This document shows, piece after piece, positions 12,462 through 32,000 of a stretch of DNA of 64,000 bases; position 1 is the stretch's first letter, and each line of letters starts with the position of its first letter. This DNA comes from Tenacibaculum sp. Bg11-29 (lineage in GTDB: Bacteria; Bacteroidota; Bacteroidia; Flavobacteriales; Flavobacteriaceae), in the NCBI RefSeq assembly GCF_002836595.1, contig NZ_PJBB01000003.1, forward strand, positions 2,913,001-2,977,000. The letters run 5' to 3'. The translations under genes and the position numbers were made by a program. A model generated the notes under the pieces. It saw nothing but the letters and a program-made list of their open reading frames with translations, had not been told where the DNA came from and ran no database searches.

Positions 12462-12466
12462 ATTAT

Positions 12467-13048: not shown

Positions 13049-13058
13049 TATTTATATC

Positions 13059-13628: not shown

Positions 13629-14554
13629 CAAAAAAAATAGAAATAAAATTAGATAAAATACCTGTACTAAATTTACTGGTAGCTTTCGGGAAGAAAATAA
13701 AAATTCCTGGACTGCAAGGTATGTCTTTATATGATGTGTTAGAAATGTATGTTATTGGTATTGTAAAAGGCGCTTTAACGACAAGAGCAGGTGGAATTGC
13801 GTTTAGTTTTTTCATGGCAATATTTCCATTTATGCTATTTATTTTATCATTGATTCCTTACATACCTATTGAGGGGTTTCAAGACAATCTCTTTTGGTTA
13901 ATTCAAGAAATGTTACCGCCAAAAACTTTTGACGCTGTAGATTTAGTTTTAAAAGATATTATAAACAACCAATATGGAGGTTTATTATCTTTTGGTTTCT
14001 TAGCGTCTATTTTTTTAATGACAAATGGGGTAAATGCTATTTTCGGAGGATTTGAATATTCATATCATGTAACCGAAATGAGAAATGTATTTAGAGCTTA
14101 CATTGTTTCATTAGGGGTTTCATTATTAATGTCTTTTTTCTTAATAATAACCGTTGTTGCAATTATTTTTTACCAAGTAGCTTTGGTTAGAATAGGTAAT
14201 GTAGGTTGGTTAGATACAGGTGATTTAGATTTACTGTATTGGGGTAGAGGGGTGTTGTTTTTAATTATGATTTTTACCATTGTTTCACTGTTGTTTCGTT
14301 TTGGGACAACGCAAGGTAAAGAAGTAAAGTTCTTTTCTCCAGGTGCAATTTTAACAACGCTTTTATCGCTTTTTACATTTTATCTTTTCGGAATTTATGT
14401 TGTTAAATTTGCAACTTACAATGAATTATATGGTTCTATTGGTACTTTGTTAATTTTAATGTTATTCGTTTGGTTAAACGCAATTATTTTACTTTTAGGC
14501 TTCGAATTAAATGCATCTATTTATCGATTAAAACGTAGAAATAAAACGTTATAA
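13625..14554 (+). CDS. YihY/BrkB family inner-membrane protein
   Basis: The 309-residue integral membrane protein has about six helices and the family core Thr-Thr-Arg-Ala-Gly-Gly-Ile-Ala-Phe-Ser-Phe-Phe-Met-Ala-Ile-Phe-Pro near residue 60. Further family elements are Thr-Asn-Gly-Val-Asn-Ala-Ile-Phe-Gly-Gly-Phe and the late Tyr-Gly-Ser-Ile-Gly-Thr-Leu-Leu-Ile-Leu-Met-Leu-Phe-Val-Trp-Leu. The family was once annotated as ribonuclease BN, which is wrong for these proteins. The transport role is uncertain. It is translationally coupled to the pentapeptide gene by a 4-bp overlap. Confidence 0.9.
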   Translation: MTKKIEIKLDKIPVLNLLVAFGKKIKIPGLQGMSLYDVLEMYVIGIVKGALTTRAGGIAFSFFMAIFPFMLFILSLIPYIPIEGFQDNLFWLIQEMLPPKTFDAVDLVLKDIINNQYGGLLSFGFLASIFLMTNGVNAIFGGFEYSYHVTEMRNVFRAYIVSLGVSLLMSFFLIITVVAIIFYQVALVRIGNVGWLDTGDLDLLYWGRGVLFLIMIFTIVSLLFRFGTTQGKEVKFFSPGAILTTLLSLFTFYLFGIYVVKFATYNELYGSIGTLLILMLFVWLNAIILLLGFELNASIYRLKRRNKTL

Positions 14555-14657
14555 TTTGTTATTAAATTCAGATATTTGCCATCACAGCGTGTTTAAGTAT
14601 TTACTGATGTAAAAATTAAAACTCATAAATAATCATTTTTATAATTCATAATTAATA

Positions 14658-16022: not shown

Positions 16023-16038
16023 ATTAACAACAAAAGTG

Positions 16039-16046
16039 TAAATTTG
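16039..16046 (+). promoter_or_regulatory. Bacteroidota -7 promoter box for folE
   Basis: TAAATTTG matches the Bacteroidota -7 consensus TAnnTTTG. Transcription should begin about 6-7 nt downstream, near 16053. That leaves almost no leader for the upstream TTG codon at 16058, so the ATG at 16067 is preferred as the start. No clear -33 TTG is present at the usual distance. Confidence 0.5.
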
Positions 16047-16066
16047 CGCCCAAATAATTGAAAGAA

Positions 16067-16759
16067 ATGTTTGAAGTTAACAACAACAAAATGAATGACG
16101 AAAGGATAGAGGAGATAGGAGAGAATCACATAGGTACATCAGCAAAGTCACCAATACGTGCAGATGCTTTTGATATATCTGATGATGAAAAAATTAAAAG
16201 AATTGAAGAAAGTGTTAAAGATATTTTAATCACTTTAGGAATGGACTTAACAGATGATAGTATGCAAGGAACACCTAAGCGTGTAGCAAAATCATTTGTA
16301 AATGAAATTTTTATGGGATTAAATCCTGCAAATATGCCAAAGGCATCAACATTTGATAATAATTATAATTATGGTGAAATGTTGGTAGAAAAGAATATCG
16401 TTGTATATTCTACCTGTGAACATCATTTATTACCAATTGTAGGTCGTGCGCATGTTGCTTATATTTCTGATGGAAAAGTTATAGGACTTTCTAAAATGAA
16501 TCGTATTGTGGAGTATTTTTCAAAACGACCACAAGTACAAGAGCGTTTAACAATGCAAATAGTACAAGCAATGCAAGAAGCATTAGGTACTGATGATGTT
16601 GCTTGTGTTATTGATGCAAAGCATTTATGTGTAAACTCTCGTGGAATAAAAGATATTGAAAGTTCTACGGTTACGGCAGAATTTGGCGGTAAATTTAAAG
16701 AAAAAGATACAAAACGTGAGTTTTTAGATTACTTAAAACTAAACACAAGTTTTGATTAA
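16067..16759 (+). CDS. folE: GTP cyclohydrolase I
   Basis: The enzyme converts GTP to 7,8-dihydroneopterin triphosphate, the first step of folate and pterin synthesis. The zinc and active-site motifs are Ser-Thr-Cys-Glu-His-His-Leu-Leu-Pro, Gly-Leu-Ser-Lys, Arg-Pro-Gln-Val-Gln-Glu-Arg-Leu-Thr and Lys-His-Leu-Cys-Val-Asn-Ser-Arg-Gly. The open frame extends to a TTG at 16058, but the promoter position and codon preference favour ATG 16067 (230 residues), or possibly ATG 16091. The N-terminal 45 residues before the conserved domain are variable in this family. Confidence 0.95.
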   Translation: MFEVNNNKMNDERIEEIGENHIGTSAKSPIRADAFDISDDEKIKRIEESVKDILITLGMDLTDDSMQGTPKRVAKSFVNEIFMGLNPANMPKASTFDNNYNYGEMLVEKNIVVYSTCEHHLLPIVGRAHVAYISDGKVIGLSKMNRIVEYFSKRPQVQERLTMQIVQAMQEALGTDDVACVIDAKHLCVNSRGIKDIESSTVTAEFGGKFKEKDTKREFLDYLKLNTSFD

Positions 16760-16785
16760 TTTTTAAACTAATAAATAATAAAAGG

Positions 16786-16821
16786 AAAAGCTCTTAACTA
16801 TACAGTTAAGAGCTTTTTTTT
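16786..16821 (+). terminator. terminator after folE
   Basis: A perfect 14-bp stem (16786-16799 with 16804-16817), loop ATAC, runs into T8. It isolates folE from the SusC locus downstream. Confidence 0.88.
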
Positions 16822-17012
16822 GTTAAATTTTTGTTGGTCAAATGTTTAATTGAAACGACAACATTAACTTAATTTTAGCATGCTGTAATTAACAATTATC
16901 TTACAAGAAAGTATCTTTTTGTATAAGTTTTCTTAACTTCTATAAGTTTACAAATAGTAAAAATATCATTTAATTTGGTCTTTAATATTTAACTATTGTA
17001 AAATTTAAACAA

Positions 17013-20000
17013 ATGAATGATTTTAGGCTTTTTGTAAGCATATTAATTAGTGTTTTTATTGGGGGAACAATTTTAGCACAAAATACTTCTATTTCAGGTG
17101 TAATTACCGATGGTAGTTTTCCGTTACCAGGAGCTAGTGTAATACTAGATGGAACGACTACTGGAGTGAATACAGATTTTGATGGTAAATTTACATTAAA
17201 GAAAATAACATCAGAAAAAGTAACGCTAAAAATATCTTTTATAGGCTATGTAAATAAGTTAGTACCATTACAATTAAATAAAGGAGAAAATACAAATGTA
17301 GGAACGATTATTTTAAAAGAATCTGCACAACAATTAGAAGAAGTTGTTATTACTGCGTTAGGAATTAAAAAAGAAGAAAAATCACTAGGGTATTCGGTTT
17401 CAAACTTAAAGGCAAAGGAATTGAATGAAGCTAAGGAAACCAATTTAGTGAATGCTTTAAATGGAAAAATTGCAGGAGTACAAATTACAAACGGATCTAC
17501 GGGAGTAGGGTCAACATCAAGAGTTGTAATTCGTGGAGAATCTTCTTTAACTTTAGGTGGTAATGGCCCTTTATTTGTGGTTGATGGAGTACCAATACAT
17601 AATAATACCATTTTTGGAAGTGGTGAAAATACCGGAGGTAGTGAAATGCAAGAGGTCGATTATGGTAATGGTGCTTCCGAAATAGATCCAGATAGTGTAG
17701 AGAGTATTAGTGTCTTAAAAGGAGCAAACGCAGCAGCATTATATGGTTCACGTGGTTCTAACGGAGTTATATTAATAAATACCAAAACAGCAAGGCGTAA
17801 TAAAGGTTTAAGTATATCTATAAATACGGGTACTACTTTAGAAGAGGCGTTAAGATTGCCTAAATATCAAAATAAATATGGGCAAGGCTGGTCAGGAGAA
17901 TTTGAATACGCTGATGGTTTAAATAATAGTTTAGGAAAAAATGATCAAGAAGATGTTTCTTGGGGACCAGAAGCCAACGGTCAGTTAATTACTCAATTCG
18001 ATAGTCCTGCAGAAGGAGGGTTAAGAGCAGGAGATATATTTTCTAGAGGATGGGTAAGAGATGCTAATGGTAAAGTAATATCACCAACGAGCATACCTAA
18101 TGATGTAACAGCAACTCCTTTTACAGCAAGGCCAAATAATGTTGAAAATTTCTACAGAACAGGGCATACTACAACATTTAGTACCGCAATTGGTTTCGGA
18201 TCAGATAAATCAGATTTTTTATTCAGCTTCGGATTGCTAGATAACGAAGGTATTATTCCCAATACTGGATTAAAAAGAAGATCATATAGAGTTAATGGAA
18301 GTATTGATGTAACAGATAAATTAAAAATTTCATTAAAATCTAATTATATAAATTCAAATAGTACTAATCGACCAAGCTCTGGATACGGTTCAGAATCGGC
18401 AATGTATATGTTTACTTGGTATGGAAGAACTGTAAATACAGAGGCTTTAAAAGAATATTGGCAAAGAGGTTATGAAGGGTTAGAGCAGTATAATTATAAT
18501 TATGCATGGCATGATAATCCATATTTTATGTTGAATGAAAATACCAATGCTTTTAATAAACATAGAGTTTTAGGAAATATTAAATTAGAATATCAATTTT
18601 CTGAAAATTTAAAATTTCAAGCAAAAAGCGGTATGGATTATTATACTGATAGAAGAGAATCTAAAAGAGCATATAGTACTCAACGATTTTTAAAAGGCGC
18701 TTATAAAGATGAAAGGGCTGATTTTAAAGAAGTAAATACAGATTTTTTGTTTTCTTATGATAAAAACTTAAATGATGTTTGGGGATTGAATGCAAATTTT
18801 GGAGGTAATCAAATGAAGCAAGAAATTAATTTTTTGTCAAATATTGCCAATGGTTTGGTTATACCAGAACTTTATAATCTTCAAAACTCTGTATCTAATT
18901 TGGTAACAGAACAGTATAAGGAAGAAAAAGAAATTAATAGTTTATATGGTACTCTAGGCATTTCATATGATAATAAAGTATTTGTTGATATAACAGCAAG
19001 AAACGACTGGTCTTCTACATTGCCAGAAAAAAACAATTCATATTTCTATCCCTCAGCATCTGTTAGTTTATTAATGAATGAAATTTTTGAAATGCCAGCA
19101 GCGTTTAGTTTCTTTAAAATAAGAGGTTCTTTGGCTAAGGTAGGTAATGACACTTCTCCTTATAATTTAAAAACACCATATTCATACCAAACACCATATG
19201 CTGGTAATAAAACATTAAGTAGAAGTACCATATTGTTAAATGAAAATTTAAAACCAGAAATGAGTACTTCATTTGAGGTGGGTACAGATTTAAAAATGTT
19301 TAATGGAGCAGTAGGTGTAGATTTTACATATTACAAATCTACTTCAGAAAATCAAATCATGACAGTGCCAATTACCAATACAGTTGGTTATAGTGCACAG
19401 GTAATTAATGCAGGTAAAATTGAAAATAAAGGAATTGAAGCTTTATTAACATTAAAACCAATAAGAAACGAAAACTTTGCATGGACCTCTAGTATCAATT
19501 TTTCTAAAAATGAAGGCAAAGTATTAGCGTTAGCAGAAAACACAGATGTTTTAACAATGGGATATGCTTCTGTATATGGAGCAGAAACATCAAAAGTATT
19601 TGTACAGGCAAGAAAAGGAGAACGTTTAGGTAACATGTACGGAAGAAAGTTTGAACGTTATAACGGTAAAATAGTTTATAAAGATGGTAAGCCGTTGGTT
19701 AATGATGAGTTACAGTTATTAGGCAATTATAATCCTGATTTTTCTTTAGGTTTTAAAAATAGCTTTAAGTATAAAAACTTCGATTTTTCTTTTTTAGTAG
19801 ATTGGAAACAAGGGGGAACTATTATTTCTAGAACAAAACAAATAGCAACGTATGCTGGTAATCTAGAAGGGTCAGAGAATAGAAACAACTATGAAGATAT
19901 TGTACCTGATGGTGTAAAGCAAGTAGGTGATGAATATGTTGCTTTAACAGATGCTGATGCTGTAGGTTGGTGGACTTATTATAAGCCAATGTACGATAGA

Positions 20001-20282
20001 AGAAATCAACAAGAAACAGGAATTGTAGATGCAACGTATGTAAAGCTAAGAGAGGTTAAATTTGGATATGATGTTCCTACTAGCTTCGTACAAAAATTAG
20101 GAATGGAATCATTAAAAATATCTATTGTAGGTAGAAATTTAGGTTTATGGACACCGTCTTCAAATCCTCATTTCGATCCAGAAACGTTAGCGATGCAAGG
20201 ATCTAATATTGTTCCTGGTATAGAGGATGTTTCGTATCCATCATCAAGAAGTTATGGTGTTAACTTTTTATTCAAATTTTAA
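17013..20282 (+). CDS. SusC/RagA-type TonB-dependent outer-membrane transporter
   Basis: The 1089-residue protein forms the channel of a SusCD uptake complex. It has a signal peptide (to about residue 22, Leu-Ala-Gln), a carboxypeptidase-regulatory-like domain (about 25-105), and a TonB box region (Glu-Glu-Val-Val-Ile-Thr-Ala-Leu-Gly). The plug carries the family motifs Val-Val-Asp-Gly-Val-Pro-Ile and Leu-Lys-Gly-Ala-Asn/Asn-Ala-Ala-Ala-Leu-Tyr-Gly-Ser-Arg-Gly. The beta-barrel ends in aromatic Leu-Phe-Lys-Phe. It is followed 20 bp later by SusD. No carbohydrate-active enzyme is nearby. The downstream genes point instead to a phosphonate or phospho-ester substrate. Confidence 0.95.
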   Translation: MNDFRLFVSILISVFIGGTILAQNTSISGVITDGSFPLPGASVILDGTTTGVNTDFDGKFTLKKITSEKVTLKISFIGYVNKLVPLQLNKGENTNVGTIILKESAQQLEEVVITALGIKKEEKSLGYSVSNLKAKELNEAKETNLVNALNGKIAGVQITNGSTGVGSTSRVVIRGESSLTLGGNGPLFVVDGVPIHNNTIFGSGENTGGSEMQEVDYGNGASEIDPDSVESISVLKGANAAALYGSRGSNGVILINTKTARRNKGLSISINTGTTLEEALRLPKYQNKYGQGWSGEFEYADGLNNSLGKNDQEDVSWGPEANGQLITQFDSPAEGGLRAGDIFSRGWVRDANGKVISPTSIPNDVTATPFTARPNNVENFYRTGHTTTFSTAIGFGSDKSDFLFSFGLLDNEGIIPNTGLKRRSYRVNGSIDVTDKLKISLKSNYINSNSTNRPSSGYGSESAMYMFTWYGRTVNTEALKEYWQRGYEGLEQYNYNYAWHDNPYFMLNENTNAFNKHRVLGNIKLEYQFSENLKFQAKSGMDYYTDRRESKRAYSTQRFLKGAYKDERADFKEVNTDFLFSYDKNLNDVWGLNANFGGNQMKQEINFLSNIANGLVIPELYNLQNSVSNLVTEQYKEEKEINSLYGTLGISYDNKVFVDITARNDWSSTLPEKNNSYFYPSASVSLLMNEIFEMPAAFSFFKIRGSLAKVGNDTSPYNLKTPYSYQTPYAGNKTLSRSTILLNENLKPEMSTSFEVGTDLKMFNGAVGVDFTYYKSTSENQIMTVPITNTVGYSAQVINAGKIENKGIEALLTLKPIRNENFAWTSSINFSKNEGKVLALAENTDVLTMGYASVYGAETSKVFVQARKGERLGNMYGRKFERYNGKIVYKDGKPLVNDELQLLGNYNPDFSLGFKNSFKYKNFDFSFLVDWKQGGTIISRTKQIATYAGNLEGSENRNNYEDIVPDGVKQVGDEYVALTDADAVGWWTYYKPMYDRRNQQETGIVDATYVKLREVKFGYDVPTSFVQKLGMESLKISIVGRNLGLWTPSSNPHFDPETLAMQGSNIVPGIEDVSYPSSRSYGVNFLFKF

Positions 20283-20302
20283 TTAAAAGAAACTTAGAAA
20301 CT

Positions 20303-21688
20303 ATGAAACTTACTAAAATTTTTAAAGGATTATTGATTGTTGCAATAACCACCTTTATTTCTTGCGATAATTTTGACAATATTAATATAAACCCAAACGA
20401 ACCTACAGCTGCTGAAGCAACGTACTTAATAACCAATGCTATTTATACCTTAGGAAACCAAACTGCTACTAGTGGGTTTAACTATGCTAGTATATTAATG
20501 CAGTACCAAGGAAAGTATGATTTTAATACAATAGATCAATATAAAATAGATTCAAATAATTCACTCTGGGTTACTAACAATAGGCTTTTGGGTGATATGA
20601 ATGATATTTTAAAAGAAGAAAAGGTAAATACATCAATGAAAGCTGTAACAAAAATTATGAAAGCCTATATAGGGGCGCAGCTTACCGATTTGTATGGGCC
20701 TGTTCCTTTTTTAGAAGCTGGTGATATCAATAATTTAACACCCAAATATAATACCCAAGAAGAAATATATACGGCTTCAAATGGTGTGTTAGATTTACTT
20801 TCTCAGGCAGTTATTACTTTATCTAACAGTAATGCAGCAATAACTGGTGATGTATTATTTAATGGTGATAATAATGCATGGATAAAGTTTGCAAATGTTT
20901 TAAGATTGCGATACTTACTTAGAGTTAGCGATAAATATGCAAATGCAGCTATAGAAATGAATCAGATAATTGCTTCGGGAAATATTTTTAATTCGAATGC
21001 TGATAATGCCATTTTACCATTTACTTCAGAACCAAATAATTGGTTTTTATCAAAAGTAAGAGAAGGTGATTTTAAAATATACAGTATTACAACAACTATT
21101 TTAGAAATGTTAAGTGATAGAGAAGACCCTAGAATTTCTTTTTACTATAAGCCCAATATGACCAATACTTACGTAGGAATTATACCTGGTTCAAATGATA
21201 GGTCTGGTAATTATACAGGATTGGGAGATGTAATGAGAGCTGATAATGTATTAGATATGGTTTTTGCTACCTATTTTGAACAAGAGTTTATTTTAGCAGA
21301 AGCAGCTATAAAAGGTCTTATTGATGTTTCAGAATCTAAAATGCATTATGAAAATGCCATAAAAGCCAATTTTGAGTATAGAAATATTAGTCTTCCAGTA
21401 AATTATTTAACAGCAGTATCAAAAGGAGCGTTTAAGGGTACGGTAGAGAATGTAATTACACAAAAATATTTAGCGAATATAATGTTAGGGCATGAGGCTT
21501 GGTTTGATTATAGAAGAACGGGTTACCCGACTTTAACGCCTGCTTTAAATAATACAAACTCAAATAAAATACCAGTACGATTTAAATATCCATCAGAAGA
21601 AACGTTTACAAATAAGATAAACAATGCAGAGGCTGTTTCTTGGTTAGGAGGTAATAATTACGATGCTAAATCGTGGTGGGATAAATAA
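20303..21688 (+). CDS. SusD/RagB-type surface lipoprotein (SusD-like_2 class)
   Basis: The 461-residue substrate-capturing lid of the SusCD transporter has a lipobox (Phe-Ile-Ser-Cys, Cys about residue 21). The opening after it, Asn-Ile-Asn-Pro-Asn-Glu-Pro-Thr, and the Gln-Tyr-Gln-Gly-Lys-Tyr and Trp-Phe-Asp-Tyr-Arg-Arg-Thr-Gly-Tyr-Pro segments are typical of the SusD-like_2 subfamily. The alpha-helical TPR scaffold is expected but not directly visible. It is co-transcribed with SusC. A long-loop inverted repeat follows before the AP-fold gene. Confidence 0.93.
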   Translation: MKLTKIFKGLLIVAITTFISCDNFDNININPNEPTAAEATYLITNAIYTLGNQTATSGFNYASILMQYQGKYDFNTIDQYKIDSNNSLWVTNNRLLGDMNDILKEEKVNTSMKAVTKIMKAYIGAQLTDLYGPVPFLEAGDINNLTPKYNTQEEIYTASNGVLDLLSQAVITLSNSNAAITGDVLFNGDNNAWIKFANVLRLRYLLRVSDKYANAAIEMNQIIASGNIFNSNADNAILPFTSEPNNWFLSKVREGDFKIYSITTTILEMLSDREDPRISFYYKPNMTNTYVGIIPGSNDRSGNYTGLGDVMRADNVLDMVFATYFEQEFILAEAAIKGLIDVSESKMHYENAIKANFEYRNISLPVNYLTAVSKGAFKGTVENVITQKYLANIMLGHEAWFDYRRTGYPTLTPALNNTNSNKIPVRFKYPSEETFTNKINNAEAVSWLGGNNYDAKSWWDK

Positions 21689-21705
21689 TTAATAAGATTT
21701 TTAAG

Positions 21706-21753
21706 ATAACCTGTTGCAATTTTTGTTTCCCCTAACAATAGCAACAGGTTTAT
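21706..21753 (+). other. long-loop inverted repeat after susD
   Basis: A 10-bp perfect stem (21708-21717 with 21741-21750) encloses a 23-nt loop and lies between susD and the AP-fold gene. No T-run follows, so it may stabilise the susCD mRNA or cause partial attenuation rather than full termination. The role is inferred. Confidence 0.45.
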
Positions 21754-21768
21754 CAAATAACAAAAATT

Positions 21769-22911
21769 ATGGTAAAAATAAGAGTATTATTAGCGCTGTT
21801 TATTATTATACTAACAGCTTGTAGTAAAAAAAATAATAAGGAATCAATACCTGAAAAAATAATAAAACCCAAAGTTGTTTTAATAACTTTAGATGGAGTT
21901 CGTTGGCAAGAATTATTTTCAGGAGCCGATTCATTGTTAGTTACAAATAGTAAATATGTAAAAGATACCGTTGCATTAGCTGCTGATTTTTGGAAAAACA
22001 CTCCAAATAAAAGAAGAGAAACATTATTGCCTTTTTTTTGGAACCATATAGCAAAAAATGGTGTTGTCTACGGAAATAGAAATTATGAAAACAATGTAAA
22101 CCTAACCAATAATCATTGGTTTTCGTATCCAGGATATAGTGAAATTCTTTGCGGTTTTGCTGATGATGAAAGCGTAAAAAGTAATGATAAAATTGATAAC
22201 CCGAATAAAACTATTTTAGAATTAGTAAATAATTCTAATGACTATAAAAATAAAGTAGCTGCTTTTGGTAGTTGGGATGTTTTTCCTAGTATTATTAATA
22301 GAACAAGAAGTAAAATACATCTTAATGCAGGATTTGAAACTGCTCTGAGAGAAGATGCTTCCGAAGAAGAAAAACAATTAAATAGATATCAATCTCAAAC
22401 ACCGAGTCCATGGCACAATGTACGATTAGATGTTTTTACACATAATTATGCTATTAATTATATGAAAGAGAAACACCCTGATTTAATATATATAGCCTAC
22501 GGAGAAACTGATGATTTTGCACATGATGGGGAGTATGATCAATATTTAAATGCTATAAAAAGATCGGATGCGTTTATAAAAAATCTATGGGATTTTGTAC
22601 AGAAGGAAACATACTATAAAGACAATACTACTTTTATTATAACTACAGATCATGGGCGTGGTACACAACCTTTAGAAACATGGAAACATCATGGTAATAA
22701 TTTACAATATCACGGAAATACATATACAATTAAGGGAGCTGATGAAGTTTGGATCGCTGCTTTTGGTAATGGCGTAAAAAAGCAAGGAGAAATGAAAATA
22801 AAAAGCCAACTATATACAAGTCAAATAGCTTCTACTATAGAAAAAACTTTGAATATTAGTGTTTTAGGGAGTAAGGCAAATAAAAAAAGCTTACCATTCA
22901 TTCAGGAATGA
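21769..22911 (+). CDS. alkaline-phosphatase-superfamily lipoprotein (phosphodiesterase-like)
   Basis: The 380-residue metal-dependent hydrolase is exported as a lipoprotein (Leu-Thr-Ala-Cys, Cys18). Family ligands are visible: Asp42 in Thr-Leu-Asp-Gly-Val-Arg-Trp, a putative nucleophile Ser119 in Phe-Ser-Tyr-Pro-Gly-Tyr-Ser-Glu-Ile-Leu-Cys-Gly, Asp248 and His252 (Thr-Asp-Asp-Phe-Ala-His-Asp-Gly), Asp294-His295 and His308. The layout is that of nucleotide pyrophosphatase/phosphodiesterases and phosphonoacetate hydrolases, with Ser in place of their usual Thr. It lies in the SusCD-phosphonate cluster, so it could release a phospho- or phosphono-ester head group outside the inner membrane. The substrate is unknown. 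Confidence 0.8.
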   Translation: MVKIRVLLALFIIILTACSKKNNKESIPEKIIKPKVVLITLDGVRWQELFSGADSLLVTNSKYVKDTVALAADFWKNTPNKRRETLLPFFWNHIAKNGVVYGNRNYENNVNLTNNHWFSYPGYSEILCGFADDESVKSNDKIDNPNKTILELVNNSNDYKNKVAAFGSWDVFPSIINRTRSKIHLNAGFETALREDASEEEKQLNRYQSQTPSPWHNVRLDVFTHNYAINYMKEKHPDLIYIAYGETDDFAHDGEYDQYLNAIKRSDAFIKNLWDFVQKETYYKDNTTFIITTDHGRGTQPLETWKHHGNNLQYHGNTYTIKGADEVWIAAFGNGVKKQGEMKIKSQLYTSQIASTIEKTLNISVLGSKANKKSLPFIQE

Positions 22912-22945
22912 TAAACTCAAGTTGTGTTGTTTGAATTAAATGTTA

Positions 22946-22978
22946 GGCAAGTCTCTTTTTATTAAAGAGAGCTTGTCT
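22946..22978 (+). other. imperfect hairpin between AP-fold gene and DUF5690 gene
   Basis: Two stacked stems (GGCAAG/CTTGTC with one G-U pair, and CTCTTT/AAAGAG) are separated by a small bulge. The hairpin is followed by TTATT and not by a proper T-run, so it may be a weak terminator or processing site within the cluster. Confidence 0.45.
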
Positions 22979-22993
22979 TATTAAAAAAAGAAT

Positions 22994-24256
22994 ATGAATT
23001 TACGTTTCATAATACAAGCTTCTTTAGCGGCATTCGGTACTTATTTCTGTATGTATGCTTTTAGAAAACCATTTACAGTAGCTACCTTCTCTAATGAGCT
23101 TTTTTTCGGAATAGATTATAAAATTTTATTGATTATAGCACAAGTTCTAGGGTACACTTTGTCAAAGTTTATAGGTATAAAAGTTATTTCTGAAATGACA
23201 TCTTCAAAAAGAATGATAGCTTTAATAGCATTTATCTTATTTGCTGAACTAGCATTGTTAGGTTTTGCATTAGTTCCAGCTCCATATAATATCTTGTTTT
23301 TATTTTTAAACGGATTACCACTTGGAATGATTTGGGGAATTATTTTTTCTTACTTAGAAGGGAGAAAAGCAACGGAGTTATTAGGTGTTATATTATCATC
23401 AAGCTTTATAGTTTCTTCAGGAGCAGTAAAATCGGTAGGTAAATTAGTCATGGATAAATTGCAATTTAATGAGTATTGGATGCCTTTTATTACAGGATTG
23501 TTTTTTATAATACCATTGGTTTTTTTTACCTACTTATTAGAAAAATTGCCAAAGCCCACAGAGGAAGATAATGCGTTGAAAATAGCTAGGAAACCATTAG
23601 ATAAAGAAGGACGGAAAGAACTATTTAGACAGTTTTCAGTACCCTTAATAATAATTGTTATTTTCTTTATGATGTTAACATCCATTAGAGATTTTAGAGA
23701 TAATTTTGCTCGTGAAATATGGGATACCTTAAATTATAAGGATGCTTCTATTTATAGTATTTCTGAAATTCCAATAGCGGTAATAGTATTAATAGTTTTG
23801 GGAATTATTGGTAGTATTACTAAAAACTATAAAGCTTTTATCTTTTATCATTATGTATTGTTTATTGGATGCTTATCTATTTTAATTTCTACCTATTTAT
23901 TTCAATTAGAATTAATATCACCAATTGCTTGGATGATGATTTCAGGCTTGGGACTGTATAGTTGTTATGTACCTTTTAATGGAATCTTTTTTGATAGAAT
24001 GATAGCAACTTTCAAAATAGAAGGAAATGTAGGTTTCTTAATATATATAGCAGATGCTTTCGGTTATTTAGGAAGCATTTTTATTTTACTATTCAAAAAC
24101 TTTGCTAAAGAGGAACTTTCTTGGTTATCCTTTTTTACTACAAGCTTATACTTTTTAGCTTTCTCAGGCTTGGGAATAACACTGTATTGCTACCATTTCT
24201 TTAAGAAAAAATATAAACAACCAGTAAAAATTAACGAATTAATATATGAACAATAA
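22994..24256 (+). CDS. DUF5690 family MFS-like membrane transporter
   Basis: The 420-residue polytopic protein has about 11-12 hydrophobic helices, including an MFS-like start (Tyr-Phe-Cys-Met-Tyr-Ala-Phe-Arg-Lys-Pro-Phe) reminiscent of organophosphate:phosphate antiporters of the GlpT/UhpT group. A basic central loop lies at about residues 190-215. DUF5690 has no assigned function that I know of. Here it lies directly upstream of, and overlaps by 11 bp, the FAD oxidoreductase gene, with a phosphonatase-like gene next. Import of an aminophosphonate across the inner membrane is the simplest inference. Confidence 0.78.
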   Translation: MNLRFIIQASLAAFGTYFCMYAFRKPFTVATFSNELFFGIDYKILLIIAQVLGYTLSKFIGIKVISEMTSSKRMIALIAFILFAELALLGFALVPAPYNILFLFLNGLPLGMIWGIIFSYLEGRKATELLGVILSSSFIVSSGAVKSVGKLVMDKLQFNEYWMPFITGLFFIIPLVFFTYLLEKLPKPTEEDNALKIARKPLDKEGRKELFRQFSVPLIIIVIFFMMLTSIRDFRDNFAREIWDTLNYKDASIYSISEIPIAVIVLIVLGIIGSITKNYKAFIFYHYVLFIGCLSILISTYLFQLELISPIAWMMISGLGLYSCYVPFNGIFFDRMIATFKIEGNVGFLIYIADAFGYLGSIFILLFKNFAKEELSWLSFFTTSLYFLAFSGLGITLYCYHFFKKKYKQPVKINELIYEQ

Positions 24257-25403
24257 ATACGATCTTATTATTGTTGGAGGAGGTGTTTTAGGAACATTTC
24301 ATGCGTATCACGCAGCACAAAAAGGGTTAACCGTGGCTATTTTAGAAAAAAATAGTGAACCACAAGGAGCGACTGTGAGAAATTTCGGACAAGTAGTGCC
24401 TTCTGGAATGAATCAAAAATGGCAAAATTATGGAAGAGAAAGTTTAAACATTTACAAGTCAATACAAAAAGAGTTTGATATTACGATTCGTCAGAATGGA
24501 ACAGTATATCTAGCCTCAAATGACGAGGAGGTACAATTGATTGAAGAGCTACATCAAATAAACAAAGCGAATAATTATAAATCACAATTATTAACTAAAA
24601 ATCAATGTTTAGAAAAGTATAGTGGTTTGAGAAATGATTATTGTAAAGCAGGTCTGTTTTTTCCAGAAGAAGTAACGGTGGAGCCAAGAGCAATGATACA
24701 TAGACTACATACTTTTATGACGAAAAATTTAACTGTAGATATCTATTATAATACAACAGTTATAGATGTAGAGGAACTTACAGTAGAAACAATTGCTATT
24801 ACTTCCGAAGGGAAAATATATAAAGGCAATAAGATACTTGTTTGTAATGGAAGTGATTTTAAAACACTTTATCCAAAAATTTATAATGAGAGTGATTTAA
24901 TTGTCTCTAAATTACAAATGCTACAAACAAAATCACAAGGGAGCTATAAATTAGATGGTTCCATTTTAACAGGATTAACAATTCGTAGATATGAGGCTTT
25001 TGAAGAATGTGCTTCTTGGGAAAGTATAAAGATTAAGGAAGATCCAAATTGTTTTGGTAAGAAATATGGGATACATATTTTATTCAAACAAGCATTAGAT
25101 GGTTCTGTGATTATAGGAGATTCTCATGAGTATGCAGATGCAAAAAATGTAGATGATTTAGGGTTTGATTTAAAAGAAGACATAGATAGTTTTATGATTG
25201 AAGAAGCGAAAAAAATCATAAACCTGCCTACATATCAAATTCAACATCGTTGGGCAGGTTTTTACAGCCAATGTAAAACAAAAGATATTTTTGAACATAC
25301 CATAAGTAATAATATACATATAGTTACTGGTATAGGAGGTAAGGGAATGACAGGTAGTGCTGGTTATTCAAAAGAAAATATAAATAAAATATTTAATTAT
25401 TAA
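24246..25403 (+). CDS. TIGR03364-type FAD-dependent oxidoreductase (phosphonate-associated)
   Basis: This 385-residue DadA/glycine-oxidase-like flavoenzyme has the FAD-binding dinucleotide fold at the N-terminus (Ile-Ile-Val-Gly-Gly-Gly-Val-Leu-Gly, residues 8-16) with the distal acidic residue in Ile-Leu-Glu-Lys. It closes with Gly-Ile-Gly-Gly-Lys-Gly-Met-Thr. The family is known for synteny with phosphonatase-like hydrolases and is proposed to deaminate 2-aminoethylphosphonate or N-methylated or hydroxylated relatives oxidatively. The adjacent gene is exactly such a hydrolase (TAA directly followed by ATG), which strongly supports that role. The precise substrate is not known. Confidence 0.85.
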   Translation: MNNKYDLIIVGGGVLGTFHAYHAAQKGLTVAILEKNSEPQGATVRNFGQVVPSGMNQKWQNYGRESLNIYKSIQKEFDITIRQNGTVYLASNDEEVQLIEELHQINKANNYKSQLLTKNQCLEKYSGLRNDYCKAGLFFPEEVTVEPRAMIHRLHTFMTKNLTVDIYYNTTVIDVEELTVETIAITSEGKIYKGNKILVCNGSDFKTLYPKIYNESDLIVSKLQMLQTKSQGSYKLDGSILTGLTIRRYEAFEECASWESIKIKEDPNCFGKKYGIHILFKQALDGSVIIGDSHEYADAKNVDDLGFDLKEDIDSFMIEEAKKIINLPTYQIQHRWAGFYSQCKTKDIFEHTISNNIHIVTGIGGKGMTGSAGYSKENINKIFNY

Positions 25404-26075
25404 ATGATAAAAGATACGATAAAAATGGTTGTTTTTGACATGGCAGGAACAACGGTAGATGAACAAAATGTAGTTTATAAAACATTACATAAAGCTATTG
25501 TAGCTTACGGAATTGAGACAAGTTTAGCAACAGTTTTAGAATTCGGTGCAGGTAAAGAAAAACATCAGGCAATTAAAGATATATTAAATCATTTGAATTA
25601 TGACGTAAATAATTCAAATGTGATTTTTGAAAACTTTAAAAAGATGTTGAATGTAGCTTATGAGGTTCTAGAGGTGAAACCAATAAAGGGAGTACAAAAA
25701 GTAATATTAGAGTTACGTTCGAAGAATATCATTGTTGTTTTAAATACAGGGTATAATAGAGAAATAGCAAGCTTATTGTTAGGTAAAATGAAATGGAAAG
25801 AAGGAGTGCATTATGATGCATTAATTACTGCAAGTGATGTAGAGGTTGGTAGACCTTATCCAGAAATGATAGAAAAGGCAATGAAAATGTTTCAAATTGA
25901 TGATGCTTCCTCAGTTTTAAAAGCAGGAGATTCTGCAATTGATATCGAAGAAGGAAAAAATGCAAAATGTGGTGTAACAATAGGAGTTTTATCTGGTGCA
26001 CAAACTAAAGAGCAGATAGCTGTTATGAAACCAGATTTTATAATTGATTCATTAGCAGATTTAAAAGTTAGTTAA
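25404..26075 (+). CDS. phosphonatase-like HAD hydrolase (TIGR03351 type)
   Basis: The 223-residue HAD-superfamily enzyme is predicted to cleave a C-P bond of a phosphonoaldehyde, releasing phosphate. Motif I is Asp12-Met-Ala-Gly-Thr-Thr, close to the Asp-x-Ala-Gly-Thr of phosphonoacetaldehyde hydrolase PhnX. In the cap, Gly-Ala-Gly-Lys51-Glu-Lys-His54 fits the PhnX Gly-x-x-Lys-x-x-His pattern that supplies the Schiff-base lysine. Motif II (Leu-Asn-Thr-Gly) and the terminal Lys-Ala-Gly-Asp-Ser-Ala-Ile-Asp-Ile-Glu are present. It is the last gene of the tightly packed block. The AP-hemopexin gene follows after 140 bp with its own promoter. Confidence 0.87.
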   Translation: MIKDTIKMVVFDMAGTTVDEQNVVYKTLHKAIVAYGIETSLATVLEFGAGKEKHQAIKDILNHLNYDVNNSNVIFENFKKMLNVAYEVLEVKPIKGVQKVILELRSKNIIVVLNTGYNREIASLLLGKMKWKEGVHYDALITASDVEVGRPYPEMIEKAMKMFQIDDASSVLKAGDSAIDIEEGKNAKCGVTIGVLSGAQTKEQIAVMKPDFIIDSLADLKVS

Positions 26076-26173
26076 TTGTAAATCATTTGTATGTATAATG
26101 TTTTTTTAATGTTATGTAGTTTATCATTCTTTTAAGGATGATTTTAAAGGGTAATTTTTGTTTACTAATAGTA

Positions 26174-26181
26174 TATTTTTG
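26174..26181 (+). promoter_or_regulatory. -7 promoter box upstream of AP-hemopexin gene
   Basis: TATTTTTG matches TAnnTTTG and lies 35 bp upstream of the ATG at 26216, giving a leader of about 28 nt. This suggests that the AP-hemopexin gene can be transcribed separately from the preceding oxidoreductase-hydrolase genes. No good -33 element was found. Confidence 0.4.
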
Positions 26182-26215
26182 ATTTGATTATTAACTAATA
26201 TTAAAATATTTAAAC

Positions 26216-28042
26216 ATGAAAAAATTACCCTTCATAAAATTAGTCGTATTAACTTTTGTGGTTTTACTATCGAATTGTCAGAACAATTTAGAAGAACAAG
26301 AAGCCGTTTTAAAGTTAGGAAAAGGAAAGTTGTCTTCCAGAGGTGTGGCTAAGAAGAAAGTTTTATTATTAGGTATAGATGGTCTTCAATTTGAAAAAAT
26401 GGTGAATGTATTTACACCTAACTTAGATGAATTTAATATTGTAAAAGCCTACACAGGTGGAATTAAAGGAGCTATTTCAGAACAAAAAACAAATAGTGGA
26501 CCAGGTTGGACAACTATTCTAACAGGTGTTTGGGCTAATAAACACCGTGTTTTAGATAATAATAGTTCTTTTAAATCAGCTACAAAAAGTATTTTTCAAA
26601 GAATTAAAGAACATAATCCAAATCTAGAAACAACAAGTATTGTTACTTGGAAAACCATCCATGACTTTTTAAGAGAGCAATTAAATTATATAGATTATAA
26701 AATTGAAGGATATGGAGATGATAAGGCTATTATGAATGCCGTAAATGAAATTAACAACCATAATCCTGATTTTTTATTTATTGATATAGATGAACCCGAT
26801 TCAGTTGGTCATGGAAATGGATTTGGAGGACTCTATAATAATGCAATTAAAAGAGCAGATGAACGATTAGGTACTTTGGTAGCGGCTGTTAAAAATAGAG
26901 CTAAGGAACGAAATGAAGATTGGTTAATTATTTTAACAACAGACCATGGAAGACAGCCAAGTGGTTATGGGCATGGAAGCCAGTCAAATTCAGAGAAAAC
27001 TATTTTTATAGGAATGAATAAAATTGGGAATGAAGAATTTACTTCATATACTTCTTCGGTTCCTAATAAAGGTTTTAATGGATTGTATGGGCATGTATCA
27101 CAAACTTCAATAGTACCAACTATTTTAACTCATTTAGAAATTCCTATTAAAAAAGAATGGCAATTATCATCAACATCATTAATAGGAAATGTTGGTGCTA
27201 GAAAGGTAATGATGGAAAATAACAATACTATTTATTGGGATTCAAATTCGTTAGGAAGCATAGAAGTGTATCGTAATAACGAGTATATAAATAGCGTTAA
27301 CGCATCTCAAGGATATTTTTTAGATAATGATCAGCCAGATGGATTACTCAATTATACACTAGTTTTAAATGGCCAAACAGCAACTACAACTATAAATAAC
27401 TTAACGATTACTGCAGGTTTAGATTGGAATGATGGTTTAAATAATAAAGCATATTTTTTTAGAGGAGATAATAAGTATGTTCGTTACAATAAAATTCTTG
27501 ACAAGGCCGATAATGGCTATCCTGTGGAAATAGATAACTCTAATTGGCCAGGTTTAGAAAGTTATAAAAATTTAATTTCTGCAGCCTTTAAATGGAATAG
27601 TTCAAAATGCATTTTCTTTTTGAAAGATGGAAGGTATATTCGATATGATATGAATAGTGATAGTATAGATTCAGGATATCCTTTAGAAATAAATAATTCT
27701 AATTGGCCAGGTTTAGAGGCACATAAGAATAAAATTCGAGCAGCTTTTAAATGGAATAATAAAAAAGCATATTTCTTTTTAAATGATGGTACCTATCTTC
27801 GATATAGTATAGCTAATGATAGAGTAGATTCTGGATACCCAAAACCAATTAATAATACAACGTGGCCAGGCTTAGGAAGTGTAGCTAGTAAAATTACCGC
27901 AGCAGTTAACTGGAATTCAGTGCACTGCTATTTATTTTTAAATGATAATACGTACGTGAAATATAGCAAAACATTAGATAGAGCAGAGTTAAACTATCCA
28001 AGGCCGACGAATAATCGTACTTGGCCAGGGCTACTTAAATAA
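26216..28042 (+). CDS. AP-superfamily hydrolase fused to a hemopexin-repeat propeller, lipoprotein
   Basis: The 608-residue lipoprotein (Leu-Leu-Ser-Asn-Cys, Cys21) has an alkaline-phosphatase-superfamily domain at about 47-330. Ligands are Asp55 (Gly-Ile-Asp-Gly), a putative Ser94 nucleophile in Ser-Gly-Pro-Gly-Trp-Thr-Thr-Ile-Leu-Thr-Gly, Asp194 and His198 in Glu-Pro-Asp-Ser-Val-Gly-His, Asp242-His243-Gly and His252 or His292. After a beta-rich linker come four hemopexin-like repeats (about 405-608), each with Ala-Tyr/Cys-x-Phe-Phe, a Tyr-x-Arg/Lys-Tyr strand and Tyr-Pro...Asn-x-x-Trp-Pro-Gly-Leu. The propeller probably binds a ligand or surface. Confidence 0.82.
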   Translation: MKKLPFIKLVVLTFVVLLSNCQNNLEEQEAVLKLGKGKLSSRGVAKKKVLLLGIDGLQFEKMVNVFTPNLDEFNIVKAYTGGIKGAISEQKTNSGPGWTTILTGVWANKHRVLDNNSSFKSATKSIFQRIKEHNPNLETTSIVTWKTIHDFLREQLNYIDYKIEGYGDDKAIMNAVNEINNHNPDFLFIDIDEPDSVGHGNGFGGLYNNAIKRADERLGTLVAAVKNRAKERNEDWLIILTTDHGRQPSGYGHGSQSNSEKTIFIGMNKIGNEEFTSYTSSVPNKGFNGLYGHVSQTSIVPTILTHLEIPIKKEWQLSSTSLIGNVGARKVMMENNNTIYWDSNSLGSIEVYRNNEYINSVNASQGYFLDNDQPDGLLNYTLVLNGQTATTTINNLTITAGLDWNDGLNNKAYFFRGDNKYVRYNKILDKADNGYPVEIDNSNWPGLESYKNLISAAFKWNSSKCIFFLKDGRYIRYDMNSDSIDSGYPLEINNSNWPGLEAHKNKIRAAFKWNNKKAYFFLNDGTYLRYSIANDRVDSGYPKPINNTTWPGLGSVASKITAAVNWNSVHCYLFLNDNTYVKYSKTLDRAELNYPRPTNNRTWPGLLK

Positions 28043-28051
28043 TATTTATAA

Positions 28052-28087
28052 AACAGGGTTATTAAATATACTAAAAATAGCCCTGTT
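28052..28087. terminator. convergent bidirectional terminator
   Basis: A 12-bp stem (28052-28063 with 28076-28087, one G-U pair) has a 12-nt AT loop between the convergent AP-hemopexin and XRE-cupin genes. The T-run is short, so strength is uncertain. Confidence 0.6.
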
Positions 28088-28661
28088 AGTTATTTTCAGA
28101 ATAAAAGTAGAACACCAACATTAGGCAATCTTCTTTGCTTCTATTTTCGGGAACATGTGGTAACCTTCCATTAAAATAAAGAGAATCACCTTCCGAAACG
28201 GTTACTTCCGTGTCATCTATTAAATAAGTACATTCTCCTTTAATAACATATTTAAATTCCCAAGCATCTGTAATAACTTTTTCTCTTTTAGACCCTGGAG
28301 ATACATTTAATAATACAGCTTCAAAGCCCACCGCATTTAAACTTTTTCCGAAAATTTGAAAATAAGTAAAACCTTCTGCTTCTACTTCTTTTTCTATTAA
28401 TTGTAGATTCTCCTTTTTGACGTGAATAAACTTTTCATTAGTTCTTTTTTCGACACCTTCAAAAAAAGTACTAGGATCAATTTCTAAAGCACCAATGACT
28501 TCCAATAAAACAGGTAAAGATGGAATAGTTCTACCATTTTCAACTCTAGAAATCAGTCCGTTGGAAACACCTGCATTAGCGGCTACTTGGCTGATAGTTA
28601 GCTTTTGTTTTTTTCTGATGGTTTTGATTCGTTTACCAATACCAATTAAGAAATCATTCAT
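28086..28661 (-). CDS. XRE-cupin transcriptional regulator
   Basis: The 191-residue protein has an N-terminal Cro/C1 helix-turn-helix (about 7-63: Leu-Thr-Ile-Ser-Gln-Val-Ala-Ala-Asn-Ala-Gly-Val-Ser-Asn-Gly-Leu-Ile-Ser-Arg-Val-Glu-Asn-Gly-Arg) and a C-terminal cupin_2 barrel (about 115-188: Glu-Phe-Lys-Tyr-Val-Ile-Lys-Gly-Glu-Cys-Thr...Gly-Asp-Ser-Leu-Tyr-Phe...Pro-His-Val-Pro). Proteins of this type bind a small metabolite in the cupin and control nearby catabolic operons. It is convergent with the SusCD-phosphonate cluster, so it is the best local candidate for its regulator. The ligand is unknown. Confidence 0.87.
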   Translation of the reverse strand: MNDFLIGIGKRIKTIRKKQKLTISQVAANAGVSNGLISRVENGRTIPSLPVLLEVIGALEIDPSTFFEGVEKRTNEKFIHVKKENLQLIEKEVEAEGFTYFQIFGKSLNAVGFEAVLLNVSPGSKREKVITDAWEFKYVIKGECTYLIDDTEVTVSEGDSLYFNGRLPHVPENRSKEDCLMLVFYFYSENN

Positions 28662-29058: not shown

Positions 29059-32000
29059 TTACTCTATAATAATTTTCTTATTAATTTTACCTAAACTAGA
29101 CGTTAATTCAATAATGTAAATACCTACAGAAGTTTTTGGTAGTTGAATTACATGAACTCCAGTTGATTTAAACTGTGTACTTATAATTTTCTTACCTAAT
29201 ATAGAGTACATACTTAATGATGCTTTATCTGTTTGTAACCCCGCAATAGTTAAATTATCATTACCCGATTTATAAATGCTTACATTTTGCAAATCTTGTG
29301 TAATAATTATGTTTTCTAATTTTTTAGATGTAGTATGAATGTAAAACTGCCCAATTCCTTTGGCTGCATTTTCTAGAACTATTTTATGACTTTGTTCTGA
29401 TAGGTTAATAAATGTATTCGTTAACCTATCTTCTAAGTAAACATTAATTCCTTCAGGGAAATTTTTAGAATTAATAGAAAATGTTAATTCTTTACCAGCT
29501 TCAGTTGTTAAACCAACAGGAACTACCATTGTTTCAATATTACTATTTGGTAAAGATTGAATCTCTAGTTTATTTCCTGTATTATTTGATAATAATTCTG
29601 TAAATAATTCAAATTCATTAGTAGTTCCTCCAAACAATTTAGAATCATAACCATTGTCAAAACCAGTAGTTTTATTATCAATATAAAACACTTTAGTCGA
29701 TTTTTTATGAGTCCCGTTTTCTACAAATAGCTCTAAAGATTGTTTAGGAATTTCTCTTTTAAATGTATTAGTATTTTGGTGTGTTTGATTAGAAGCAGCA
29801 AAAGAAATAGTACTCGTATTAGGGCTTACGTTTGCTTCTATAAAGAAACCTTGTGCAGGTGCAATTTGAATAGGGTTTAAAGTATTATGAGCTACATATT
29901 GAGTACCATTCCATAACCAAACTGTTTCTTCTGAAAGTTCAAGTGTATTCGTTGATGCTAATATTGATGAACTAAGATATGCTGCAAAAGGATTACCAAG
30001 TAAATTAAAATCGTTTCTAGCGCCGTTATTGATATTAATATTTACATTAGAAGTGTTTAATGTTCCCGTAAATGAAATATCACCAGTGTTAGCTAATTTT
30101 AAAGAATAGCCTTTAGCATTTTGAATAGCTCCAGTTGAGGTTGCTGATTGATAATCCCAAGCACTTGTAAGACTATTATTATTAAAAGGAGCAATACCTA
30201 TGTTGGTGCTTGTTCCCGAGGCTAAAGTATGATTTGGATTTGTAATGAAATCTTCAATAGTTTGACCAGCAAGAGGTGAAGAAATTAAATACCAATTAGT
30301 ACTTGGTATATTTCTTCTGTATGTTACTGAACCTGTAACTGTACTTTGTGGAATAAAAGAAGCACCAGAGTTAATCGTTAAAGTATTAAAATTTACAGCC
30401 GTATTTGCTGTTGGGTAATTAGTTAAACCATTAGGAATAGTAATAATACTTGTAGCTGTTGGTACTGTATTGCTACTCCAATTACTTGATGTATTCCAAT
30501 CATTATCAGTATTCCCTGTCCAAGTTATATAAGTAGCGTCAATGGTAGAATTTAAACTTAAGTTGTCAATCCAAATTCTTGTTCCATATCCCGAAATATT
30601 TTTGAATTTTACTAAAACATTAGGGTTACCATCAAAAGTGTTTAAATCGATAGTTTCTTTTCTCCAGTGTTCTGGCAATGTAGGAATCCAGTCATTAGGT
30701 TCTGTTATATCTGGAGTTGAAACATCATCCAAAACTTCAAAAGTTTGTAATTCATTTTGATCTTTGTTGTATGCTTCAGTCCATGTTGCACCACAATTTG
30801 TCGAAATTAGAATGATTAAGTTATCAGGGCTAATAACACCAGGTGTATGTGTATTGTTGTACTTAGTGTATGCTATATCAAATTCCATTTTTTTATCTCC
30901 AATAACTGAAAAGTCAAAAGGTTTTAATATTAATTCATCTACTTTACCAGTAGGACTATCTGCATTGTTAATAACTAAACATGAAGAATCTCCGTTACCA
31001 GCATCACTTCTTTTTTCCCAAAGAATAGCATCATCATCTGGGTTAATAATTTCCCAGTCTGAAATAGGAAATGCTCCTTCAAAGCTTTCAGTATATGGTA
31101 AAGAGTTAGTTCCTTTTACGGTAATGTATGATGTTTTAATAGTAGTTGTTCCTGTACCAAAAGTATTACTAGCTGTTAATTCAACTTTGTAAACACCAGA
31201 TTGGCTATAAGTAATTAAAGGGTTTTGTTCTGTAGAAGTAGCAGGTGTTCCCCCTTCAAGTATCCAGGTCCATGCGGTAGGTATTCCTGTAGATAAATCG
31301 GTAAACTGAACATTACTTTCTTGACAAACTCCTTTGTCTTCTTTTTCAAAATCAGAAGAAGGTGTTTCTTGACTGTCAGTTGTAATACTTACATTGTCAA
31401 TCCAAATACGAGTTCCGTATCCCGATTCATTTACAAATTTTACTAATACATTCGATTCTCCTTGATAGTCATTAAGAATAATTCTTTCTTTTCTCCAATG
31501 TTCAGGTAGCGAAGGAACCCAGTCGTTGGCTTCATTATTTGGTGTTTCTGGATTATCTAAAACTTCTGTCGTTTCTAGTTCGGTATGAGTTTTTTCATAC
31601 AATGTAACCCAAGTAACACCACAATCTTTAGATATTAAAACTTTTAGTTTATCAGGGCTATCATTATCGAATTTAGTATAAGCTACATCAAAATAAAAGT
31701 CAGTAGCACCTACTGATAAATCTAATGAAGGCAATAAAATTTCGTCTAATTCGCCTATGGTAGAGTTGTCAGCGTTATTCATTATCATGCATAAATTATC
31801 GCCATTTCCTGCGTTTCCTTGTTCAAATTGTAATCCACTATCAAAATTTCGAATTTGCCAATCAGTAGGAGGGAAGGTGCCAGAAAAATCTTCAGTAAAT
31901 GATTGTGATTTGGGTGTTTTTAAAACAACAAAAGCTGTTTGAGTAACAGAATTACTACCATATATGTTTGTTGTTGTAAGCGTAACATCATAAGAACCTG

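Follow-up and report, generated by a model that had tools for sequence, protein, structure and literature searches.

A modular locus for the probable utilisation of aminophosphonates in Tenacibaculum sp. Bg11-29 and other Bacteroidota

Gene content of the locus

The analysed stretch of DNA from the marine bacterium Tenacibaculum sp. Bg11-29 (64,000 nucleotides, referred to here as the window) contains, at positions 17013–28661, eight uninterrupted open reading frames (ORFs) that very likely form a locus for the utilisation of aminophosphonates. Seven genes lie on the plus strand, and the regulator gene is convergent with them on the minus strand. The first gene encodes a SusC-type TonB receptor (17013–20282, +; TIGR04056, 651.6 bits, cut-off 368.25) and is followed by genes for a SusD-like lipoprotein (20303–21688, +; SusD-like_2, PF12771, 276.8 bits), an alkaline-phosphatase (AP)-superfamily hydrolase, AP1 (21769–22911, +; PF01676/PF01663), and a DUF5690 membrane protein, the proposed inner-membrane aminophosphonate carrier (22994–24256, +; PF18943, 556.2 bits). 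The next two genes encode a flavin adenine dinucleotide (FAD) oxidoreductase of TIGR03364, the PbfD family, which passes the curated cut-off (24246–25403, +; 419.5 versus 285.1 bits), and a phosphonatase-like HAD hydrolase of TIGR03351, which passes narrowly (25404–26075, +; 221.8 versus 218.9 bits). The FAD gene overlaps the DUF5690 gene by 11 bases and abuts the HAD gene. A second AP-superfamily protein, AP2, contains hemopexin repeats (26216–28042, +; PF01663/PF01676 and PF00045), and the locus is closed by the XRE-cupin regulator (28086–28661, −; HTH_3 and Cupin_2). Judged by eye, AP1 and AP2 both have a lipoprotein-type signal. Three proposed operators accompany the genes: an exact palindrome, TTTACAAATAGTAAA, at 16947–16961, and a copy with one mismatch at 16988–17002, both ahead of the susC start, and another copy with one mismatch at 26161–26175, ahead of AP2.

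The ORFs and the Pfam and TIGR profile matches confirm the families that the initial annotation had assigned to the eight genes, and also its statement that carbohydrate-active enzymes are missing, as no glycoside hydrolase, lyase or other carbohydrate-active family occurs among the Pfam matches of these genes. A SusC gene followed by a SusD-like gene is the arrangement of a SusCD importer, and SusCD adjoins the phosphoesterase-type family genes AP1 and AP2, the gene content predicted for a PusCD-type system. The combination of SusCD, lipoprotein hydrolases and a local regulator resembles that of polysaccharide utilisation loci. However, such loci contain at least one carbohydrate-active enzyme, whereas none is found here and the cytoplasmic part is one of phosphonate catabolism. 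The nearest of the loci compared below is that of Tenacibaculum ovolyticum DSM 18103 (L066), with 97% identity in DUF5690 and the whole locus in the same gene order. The genome of the window has one TIGR03364 gene above the cut-off and one copy of the HAD gene of the locus.

Conservation and modularity

The gene company was analysed in an order sample of 296 genomes and a phylum sample of 395 genomes, which have eight DUF5690 genomes in common; all Fisher tests given here ignore kinship. In the order sample TIGR03364 scores above the cut-off in 24 genomes and DUF5690 is present in 25, with both found in 24 (Fisher, 2e-34). All 23 other order genomes with TIGR03364 contain the DUF5690, FAD and HAD genes in one region of at most 20 kb, in which order and strand vary, and an XRE-cupin gene is present in 21 of these regions. 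Because the three genes share one region in 23 other genomes, the grouping is more than chance. The sole order genome with DUF5690 and without TIGR03364 above the cut-off (G164) has a HAD gene, an AP-type gene and a TonB receptor nearby (L143). In the phylum sample the corresponding numbers are 32 of 395 for TIGR03364, 42 of 395 for DUF5690 and 29 for both (Fisher, 1e-30); in one further genome (G492) the FAD match lies slightly under the TIGR03364 cut-off.

A scan of species genomes with a DUF5690 alignment gave at least 533 relatives, and the best 80 of these, nearest to the query, are referred to as the named loci. They are not independent, with many from Chryseobacterium, Flavobacterium, Arenibacter and Tenacibaculum, and several are cut by contig ends. 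Genes were called by script as the longest ORFs after removal of overlaps, by which some genes may be missed (L224 lost its DUF5690 ORF). The 80 named loci contain HAD in 69 cases, PbfD in 67, an AP-type hydrolase in 66, XRE-cupin in 65, PbfA in 13 and another FAD oxidase in 2; SusC is present in 29, SusD in 26, another TonB receptor in 45 and any receptor in 73. Two, L082 and L091, contain no phosphonate gene, the latter being cut at a contig end.

What stays constant in the cluster is DUF5690-PbfD-HAD, while the receptor and AP genes vary. This bears on the idea that the locus is a general organophosphate scavenging system of the PusCD kind for phosphodiesters of lipids and nucleic acids, with the FAD/HAD pair as a side line or acting on a non-phosphonate amine. 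The two AP-superfamily hydrolases would suit such a system, and PusCD loci of Flavobacterium are described as pairing SusCD with phosphodiesterases (PMC8115612). Nevertheless, given this constant core, and with other aminophosphonate enzymes often present in loci that have no PbfD, we consider this explanation very unlikely.

The receptor is exchangeable among DUF5690 loci. The nearest receptor on the DUF5690 strand within six genes, found in 73 of the 80 named loci, is SusC in 28 and another TonB receptor in 45; it is positioned directly upstream in 45, and one locus holds both receptor types. The co-occurrence of SusCD with the FAD/HAD pair in other genomes, which had been put forward as a check, thus speaks in favour of the initial annotation. 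The proposed pathway for phosphonates from the outer membrane to the cytoplasm is supported by the co-occurrence, but the importer need not be SusCD. Within Tenacibaculum, four loci (L061, L064, L083 and L128) follow HisS and FolE, as do the window locus and L066, and in these four a TonB receptor of 945–950 residues (TIGR01782 in L061, 468 bits, cut-off 310) replaces SusC, SusD and AP1 of the window. Outside this genus, the SusC proteins of 17 DUF5690 loci score 743–1035 bits against SusC of the window, versus 489 bits for its best home paralogue; as the programs and databases behind the two values differ, they are roughly comparable at best.

In AP1, residues S119, D42, D248, D249, H252, D294, H295 and H308 are invariant in all 25 aligned sequences, with Ser119 at the nucleophile position, as assigned from AP-superfamily motifs, and with the Asp/His set being of the type that binds metal; in AP2, S94, D243, H244 and H253 are invariant in 10 of 10. 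Relatives of AP1 are very many (6569 matches among 8000 candidates scored), and the 120 matches listed bear names as diverse as alkaline phosphatase family protein, phosphoglyceromutase and sulfatase-like hydrolase, from which it follows that the AP1 family is wider than the phosphonate locus. That the AP hydrolases might cleave phosphonate monoesters is a guess from their superfamily.

A SusCD pair of Maribacter has been proposed as a laminarin importer, which raises the question whether the locus could serve carbohydrate uptake. The M. forsetii proteins concerned, P177_RS04595/04600, rise most on laminarin versus casamino acids (PMC11345257). The pair is, however, expressed on glucose too, and its described neighbours include an alkaline phosphatase, an FAD oxidoreductase and a phosphonatase-like hydrolase (PMC11345257). 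In the same proteome the log2 differences are about 28, where 0 had been entered for control values that were missing, and the sugars were added to a carbon-limiting casamino-acid medium, so that limitation by another nutrient is possible in these cultures. In a Maribacter metagenome-assembled genome the genes are arranged as DUF5690-PbfD-HAD-XRE-SusC, with the contig cut in SusC (L097). The M. forsetii SusCD locus, judged from the published descriptions of its neighbours, is probably a locus of the same kind, which offers an alternative reading for a pair proposed to take up laminarin. Together with the missing carbohydrate-active enzymes in the window locus, these observations make a carbohydrate uptake locus extremely unlikely.

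Cytoplasmic enzymes and the putative carrier

The TIGR03364 members PbfD1 and PbfD2, from other organisms, oxidise 2-aminoethylphosphonate (AEP) and N-methyl-AEP (M1AEP) to phosphonoacetaldehyde, and PbfD is mentioned in the FCB group (PMC10590968). In the order sample none of the 25 genomes with DUF5690 has a PhnW above the cut-off, whereas 24 of them have PbfD, and hence PbfD would have to supply phosphonoacetaldehyde there. A PhnW-like match in the genome of the window (G000:C3:3883013; 120.6 versus 400.8 bits) was set aside, no phosphonate gene being recognised by eye alongside it. A second FAD oxidase type, with no NCBIfam family above the cut-off, occurs in two loci with DUF5690 and HAD but without PbfD (L094, 11247–12491; L103, 19405–20643), and may be another aminophosphonate oxidase.

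The HAD enzyme lies below the cut-off of the PhnX equivalog TIGR01422 (111 versus 220 bits). In a profile of 24 HAD proteins from such loci, however, the best match is with solved PhnX chains (E 8e-30). The invariant lysine of these proteins aligns with the Schiff-base Lys53 of PhnX, and neither Asp12 nor Lys53 varies among the 24 proteins. In Achromobacter, Asp12, Lys53 and His56 are reported to take part in catalysis (PMC11203657). A first impression by eye that His56 of PhnX is kept was ruled out by the family alignment and the profile. As Lys53 and Asp12 are invariant and His56 is replaced, Schiff-base C–P cleavage by the HAD enzyme of the locus is likely, with the role of His56 presumably filled otherwise.

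The adjacent TIGR03364 oxidase and phosphonatase-type HAD enzyme, without PhnW, resemble the hydrolytic PbfD-phnX pathway of AEP described by Zangelmi et al. 2023 (PMC10590968). The window locus differs from that pathway in that its HAD enzyme belongs to TIGR03351 and not to TIGR01422, and in that it also includes an outer-membrane receptor, AP hydrolases, DUF5690 and an XRE-cupin gene. The main text of the paper contains neither the word SusD nor the word Bacteroid. Phosphonate-degrading enzymes have been placed beside phosphate-starvation SusCD pairs (PusCD) in Flavobacterium (Lidbury et al. 2020, PMC8115612). A link between SusCD pairs and phosphonate genes has therefore been published before, in a paper whose main text does not contain the word FAD. 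Open-licence papers in PubMed Central yielded none on DUF5690 and none on TIGR03351, and, among the papers listed, none on such a cluster besides PMC8115612 and PMC11345257.

DUF5690 is probably an inner-membrane carrier for aminophosphonates, because other loci of this family carry PbfA, PhnW, PhnY and PhnA. In Arenibacter, nine of ten loci have neither PbfD nor HAD but contain PbfA, a hydroxy-AEP lyase, and the tenth (L091) is cut; PbfA of L086 scores 727.5 bits (cut-off 525). In the order sample PbfA is above the cut-off in 2 of the 25 DUF5690 genomes, both times inside the DUF5690 region. Locus L205, from Bacteroidota outside the order, has on one strand (9413–17858) AP1, a Phn-HD-like gene, PhnA (496 versus 407.55 bits), PhnY (665.1 versus 635.65 bits), PhnW (485.1 versus 400.8 bits), an FAD oxidase and DUF5690; the Phn-HD oxygenase-like gene is slightly below its cut-off (209.1 versus 214.6 bits). 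PhnW is above the cut-off in all four candidates picked by eye (L205, L217, L224 and L226). For loci outside the order one DUF5690 copy was fetched per genome (G559, G601, G612 and G630 carry more), and in 22 of the resulting 34 a recognised gene of an AEP route (PbfD, PbfA, PhnW or HAD) is found.

Hydropathy analysis of DUF5690 gives 16 short segments, merged by eye to about twelve. Eight basic residues (R24, K43, K58, R124, R199, R207, R232 and R335) have a conservation of at least 0.97 over 138 sequences, near-duplicates included, and this Arg/Lys set would suit an anionic ligand. Relationships with other families are weak: among 16 members compared with Pfam, MFS_1 is matched by one (E 0.0016) and AzlD by five (best E 0.0007). 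The stretch YAFRKPF had suggested an OPA/GlpT-type carrier, which the profile comparisons did not bear out and which is left as unproven. When DUF5690 is compared by hhalign with 13 proteins selected through TIGR00881, E is 0.09 with 16 sequences and 0.06 with the 138-sequence alignment. The selected proteins are a poor stand-in for GlpT; all lie below the cut-off (0 of 99 genomes above), and at least one of them (L176) resembles a wrong reading frame. The control comparison of the TIGR00881 set with a TIGR00710 set does give a match (E 3e-25). As a single-polypeptide inner-membrane carrier encoded beside AEP enzymes, DUF5690 would resemble AepP (Murphy et al. 2021, PMC8316502), but AepP is described as related to GlpT, a relation that profile comparison did not show for DUF5690. 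Two observations stand apart from these results. Five loci (L201, L203, L204, L219 and L221) have a variant N-terminal motif, FGFRKSF, with no recognised phosphonate gene near, perhaps indicating another substrate, and the Caulobacter vibrioides control genome has a DUF5690 match, yet TIGR03364 is not above the cut-off.

Candidate operators and proposed pathway

The upstream regions of the locus genes have a palindrome, TTTAC-N5-GTAAA, in common. In 58 of the 80 named loci a copy stands no more than 300 bases ahead of a locus gene, whereas 19 decoys with permuted arms reach at most 7 of 80. The palindrome is present in 56 of the 65 loci with an XRE-cupin gene versus 2 of the 15 without (L075 and L120, both on cut contigs; Fisher, 1.3e-7), and three of the nine XRE-cupin loci that have no exact site contain a relaxed one. 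A second site at the same spacing ahead of the locus recurs in most other Tenacibaculum loci, and all 24 Chryseobacterium loci have exact or relaxed sites ahead of the AP2-type gene. Counting alone shows no enrichment of the single-mismatch pattern in the window, with 16 occurrences versus 11.5 expected; the operator case rests on place and recurrence.

The sites were further compared in 24 whole genomes, using core forms with the inner letters AAATA, TATTT, TAATA or TATTA, which were chosen after the named loci had been seen. Core-form sites occur in 11 of 12 genomes with the locus, in 10 of them inside it, and in none of 12 genomes without DUF5690, picked by hand (Fisher, 1e-5). This separation is confined to the core forms: once other inner letters are allowed, the full degenerate pattern turns up in 11 of 12 genomes with the locus and in 5 of 12 without DUF5690. 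Of the 14 core-form sites in the locus genomes, 11 fall inside the locus. The others are located inside an ORF (G000:C3:3335552), between genes read as unrelated (G143:C6:88660) and 47 bases before a large lipoprotein-like gene (G286:C8:183581), where the site might be real. The palindrome, which tracks the XRE-cupin gene, is new here, and the strong correlation suggests that the XRE-cupin protein controls the locus from these candidate sites. Since 11 of the 14 sites lie inside the locus, the regulator appears to be locus-specific, and most likely responds to the substrate or an intermediate instead of acting as a global Pho regulator.

AEP-type compounds (AEP and N-methyl-AEP) are the best description of the substrate, because assays exist for TIGR03364 members (PMC10590968) and because PbfA, PhnW, PhnY or PhnA occur in other DUF5690 loci. 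In the proposed pathway SusCD would bind a ligand that bears AEP or N-methyl-AEP and move it across the outer membrane via TonB, after which AP1 and AP2 may cut the phosphonate ester and free the AEP-type head group. Going by its gene company, DUF5690 would take this head group across the inner membrane. In the cytoplasm the PbfD-type flavoenzyme is expected to use O2 for oxidising the amine, forming phosphonoacetaldehyde and H2O2 and releasing ammonia or methylamine, as shown for other members of the family, and the HAD enzyme would form a Schiff base at Lys53 and split the C–P bond, yielding acetaldehyde and phosphate. The XRE-cupin protein would act as the locus switch at the palindromes ahead of susC and AP2.

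We infer from the two AP-superfamily lipoproteins that the food may be a phosphonolipid or phosphonoglycan. A variant of the pathway has free AEP or N-methyl-AEP as the whole substrate, with the receptor concentrating a small molecule and the AP hydrolases serving other esters. The assayed PbfD substrates are free compounds (PMC10590968), and 14 of the 80 named loci, some of them cut, have no AP gene in view. On the other hand, 73 of 80 loci have a TonB receptor, which would suit a ligand that cannot pass porins because of its size, and a proposed operator stands ahead of the AP2-type gene in the window as in the Chryseobacterium loci; we regard the variant as less likely than not. In another variant, which we regard as unlikely, the locus would provide nitrogen rather than phosphorus, with PbfD releasing ammonia or methylamine. 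Pseudomonas putida requires its AEP permease, AepP, in order to use AEP as a nitrogen source (PMC8316502), and a locus-specific instead of a Pho regulator would fit, but the phosphate-freeing HAD step is kept in 69 of 80 loci.

Several observations weigh against the assignment to aminophosphonate utilisation or against parts of the pathway. For AP1 and AP2 no close characterised relative was found. The His56 column of PhnX is Ala in the HAD enzyme, in both family alignment and profile. DUF5690 has no match among solved structures (PDB, E up to 1), and its hhalign comparison with two MFS families is not significant. In the phylum sample, 3 of the 32 TIGR03364 genomes have no DUF5690 (G486, G523 and G602), the two genes lie far apart in G465 and G515, and one of the 80 named loci, L082, is a DUF5690 orphan. 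Outside the order, 12 of the 34 DUF5690 loci show no recognised AEP-route gene in view, an upper bound because PhnW candidates were picked by eye; in G559 and G612, both among the 12, another DUF5690 copy adjoins PbfD. The family may for this reason have other tasks. Six XRE-cupin loci have no operator site, relaxed patterns included. Finally, nine SusC proteins (six from Arenibacter and those of L081, L126 and L134) reach 414–456 bits against SusC of the window, no better, on the same rough scale, than its home paralogue, and the DUF5690 loci thus contain more than one SusC line.

The locus is real, conserved and modular, and close to a known idea, which it extends to the outer membrane and to candidates for a carrier family and a regulatory switch. 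The chances appear evenly balanced for the wider model, in which Bacteroidota would share a locus with a fixed cytoplasmic core and exchangeable receptors and hydrolases, DUF5690 would be a new carrier class, the XRE-cupin protein a dedicated switch, and the food ester- or polymer-bound aminophosphonates rather than free AEP. A sizeable share of the organic phosphorus in the sea consists of phosphonates, and who eats bound phosphonates therefore bears on the phosphorus cycle. Work on AEP uptake, as described in PMC8316502, concerns inner-membrane systems, and the locus points to an outer-membrane route for AEP in a phylum whose members feed on large molecules. It also gives DUF5690, a family of unknown function, a testable role and provides a predicted operator for an uncharacterised regulator.

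Elsewhere in the window, a gene adjoining the locus on the minus strand (29059–33972) encodes a protein of 1637 residues with a type IX secretion system sorting tail (TIGR04183, 26.2 versus 23 bits) and a match with the metalloproteinase family TIGR03952 below the cut-off (64.2 versus 208.1 bits). Four tandem genes of 63 residues each, cold-shock-protein-like by eye, lie at 34837–36303 with their starts 425 bases apart; three of the proteins are identical and one has a single change. A small signal recognition particle RNA (Rfam RF04183, 104.5 bits) is located at 59228–59334 on the plus strand.

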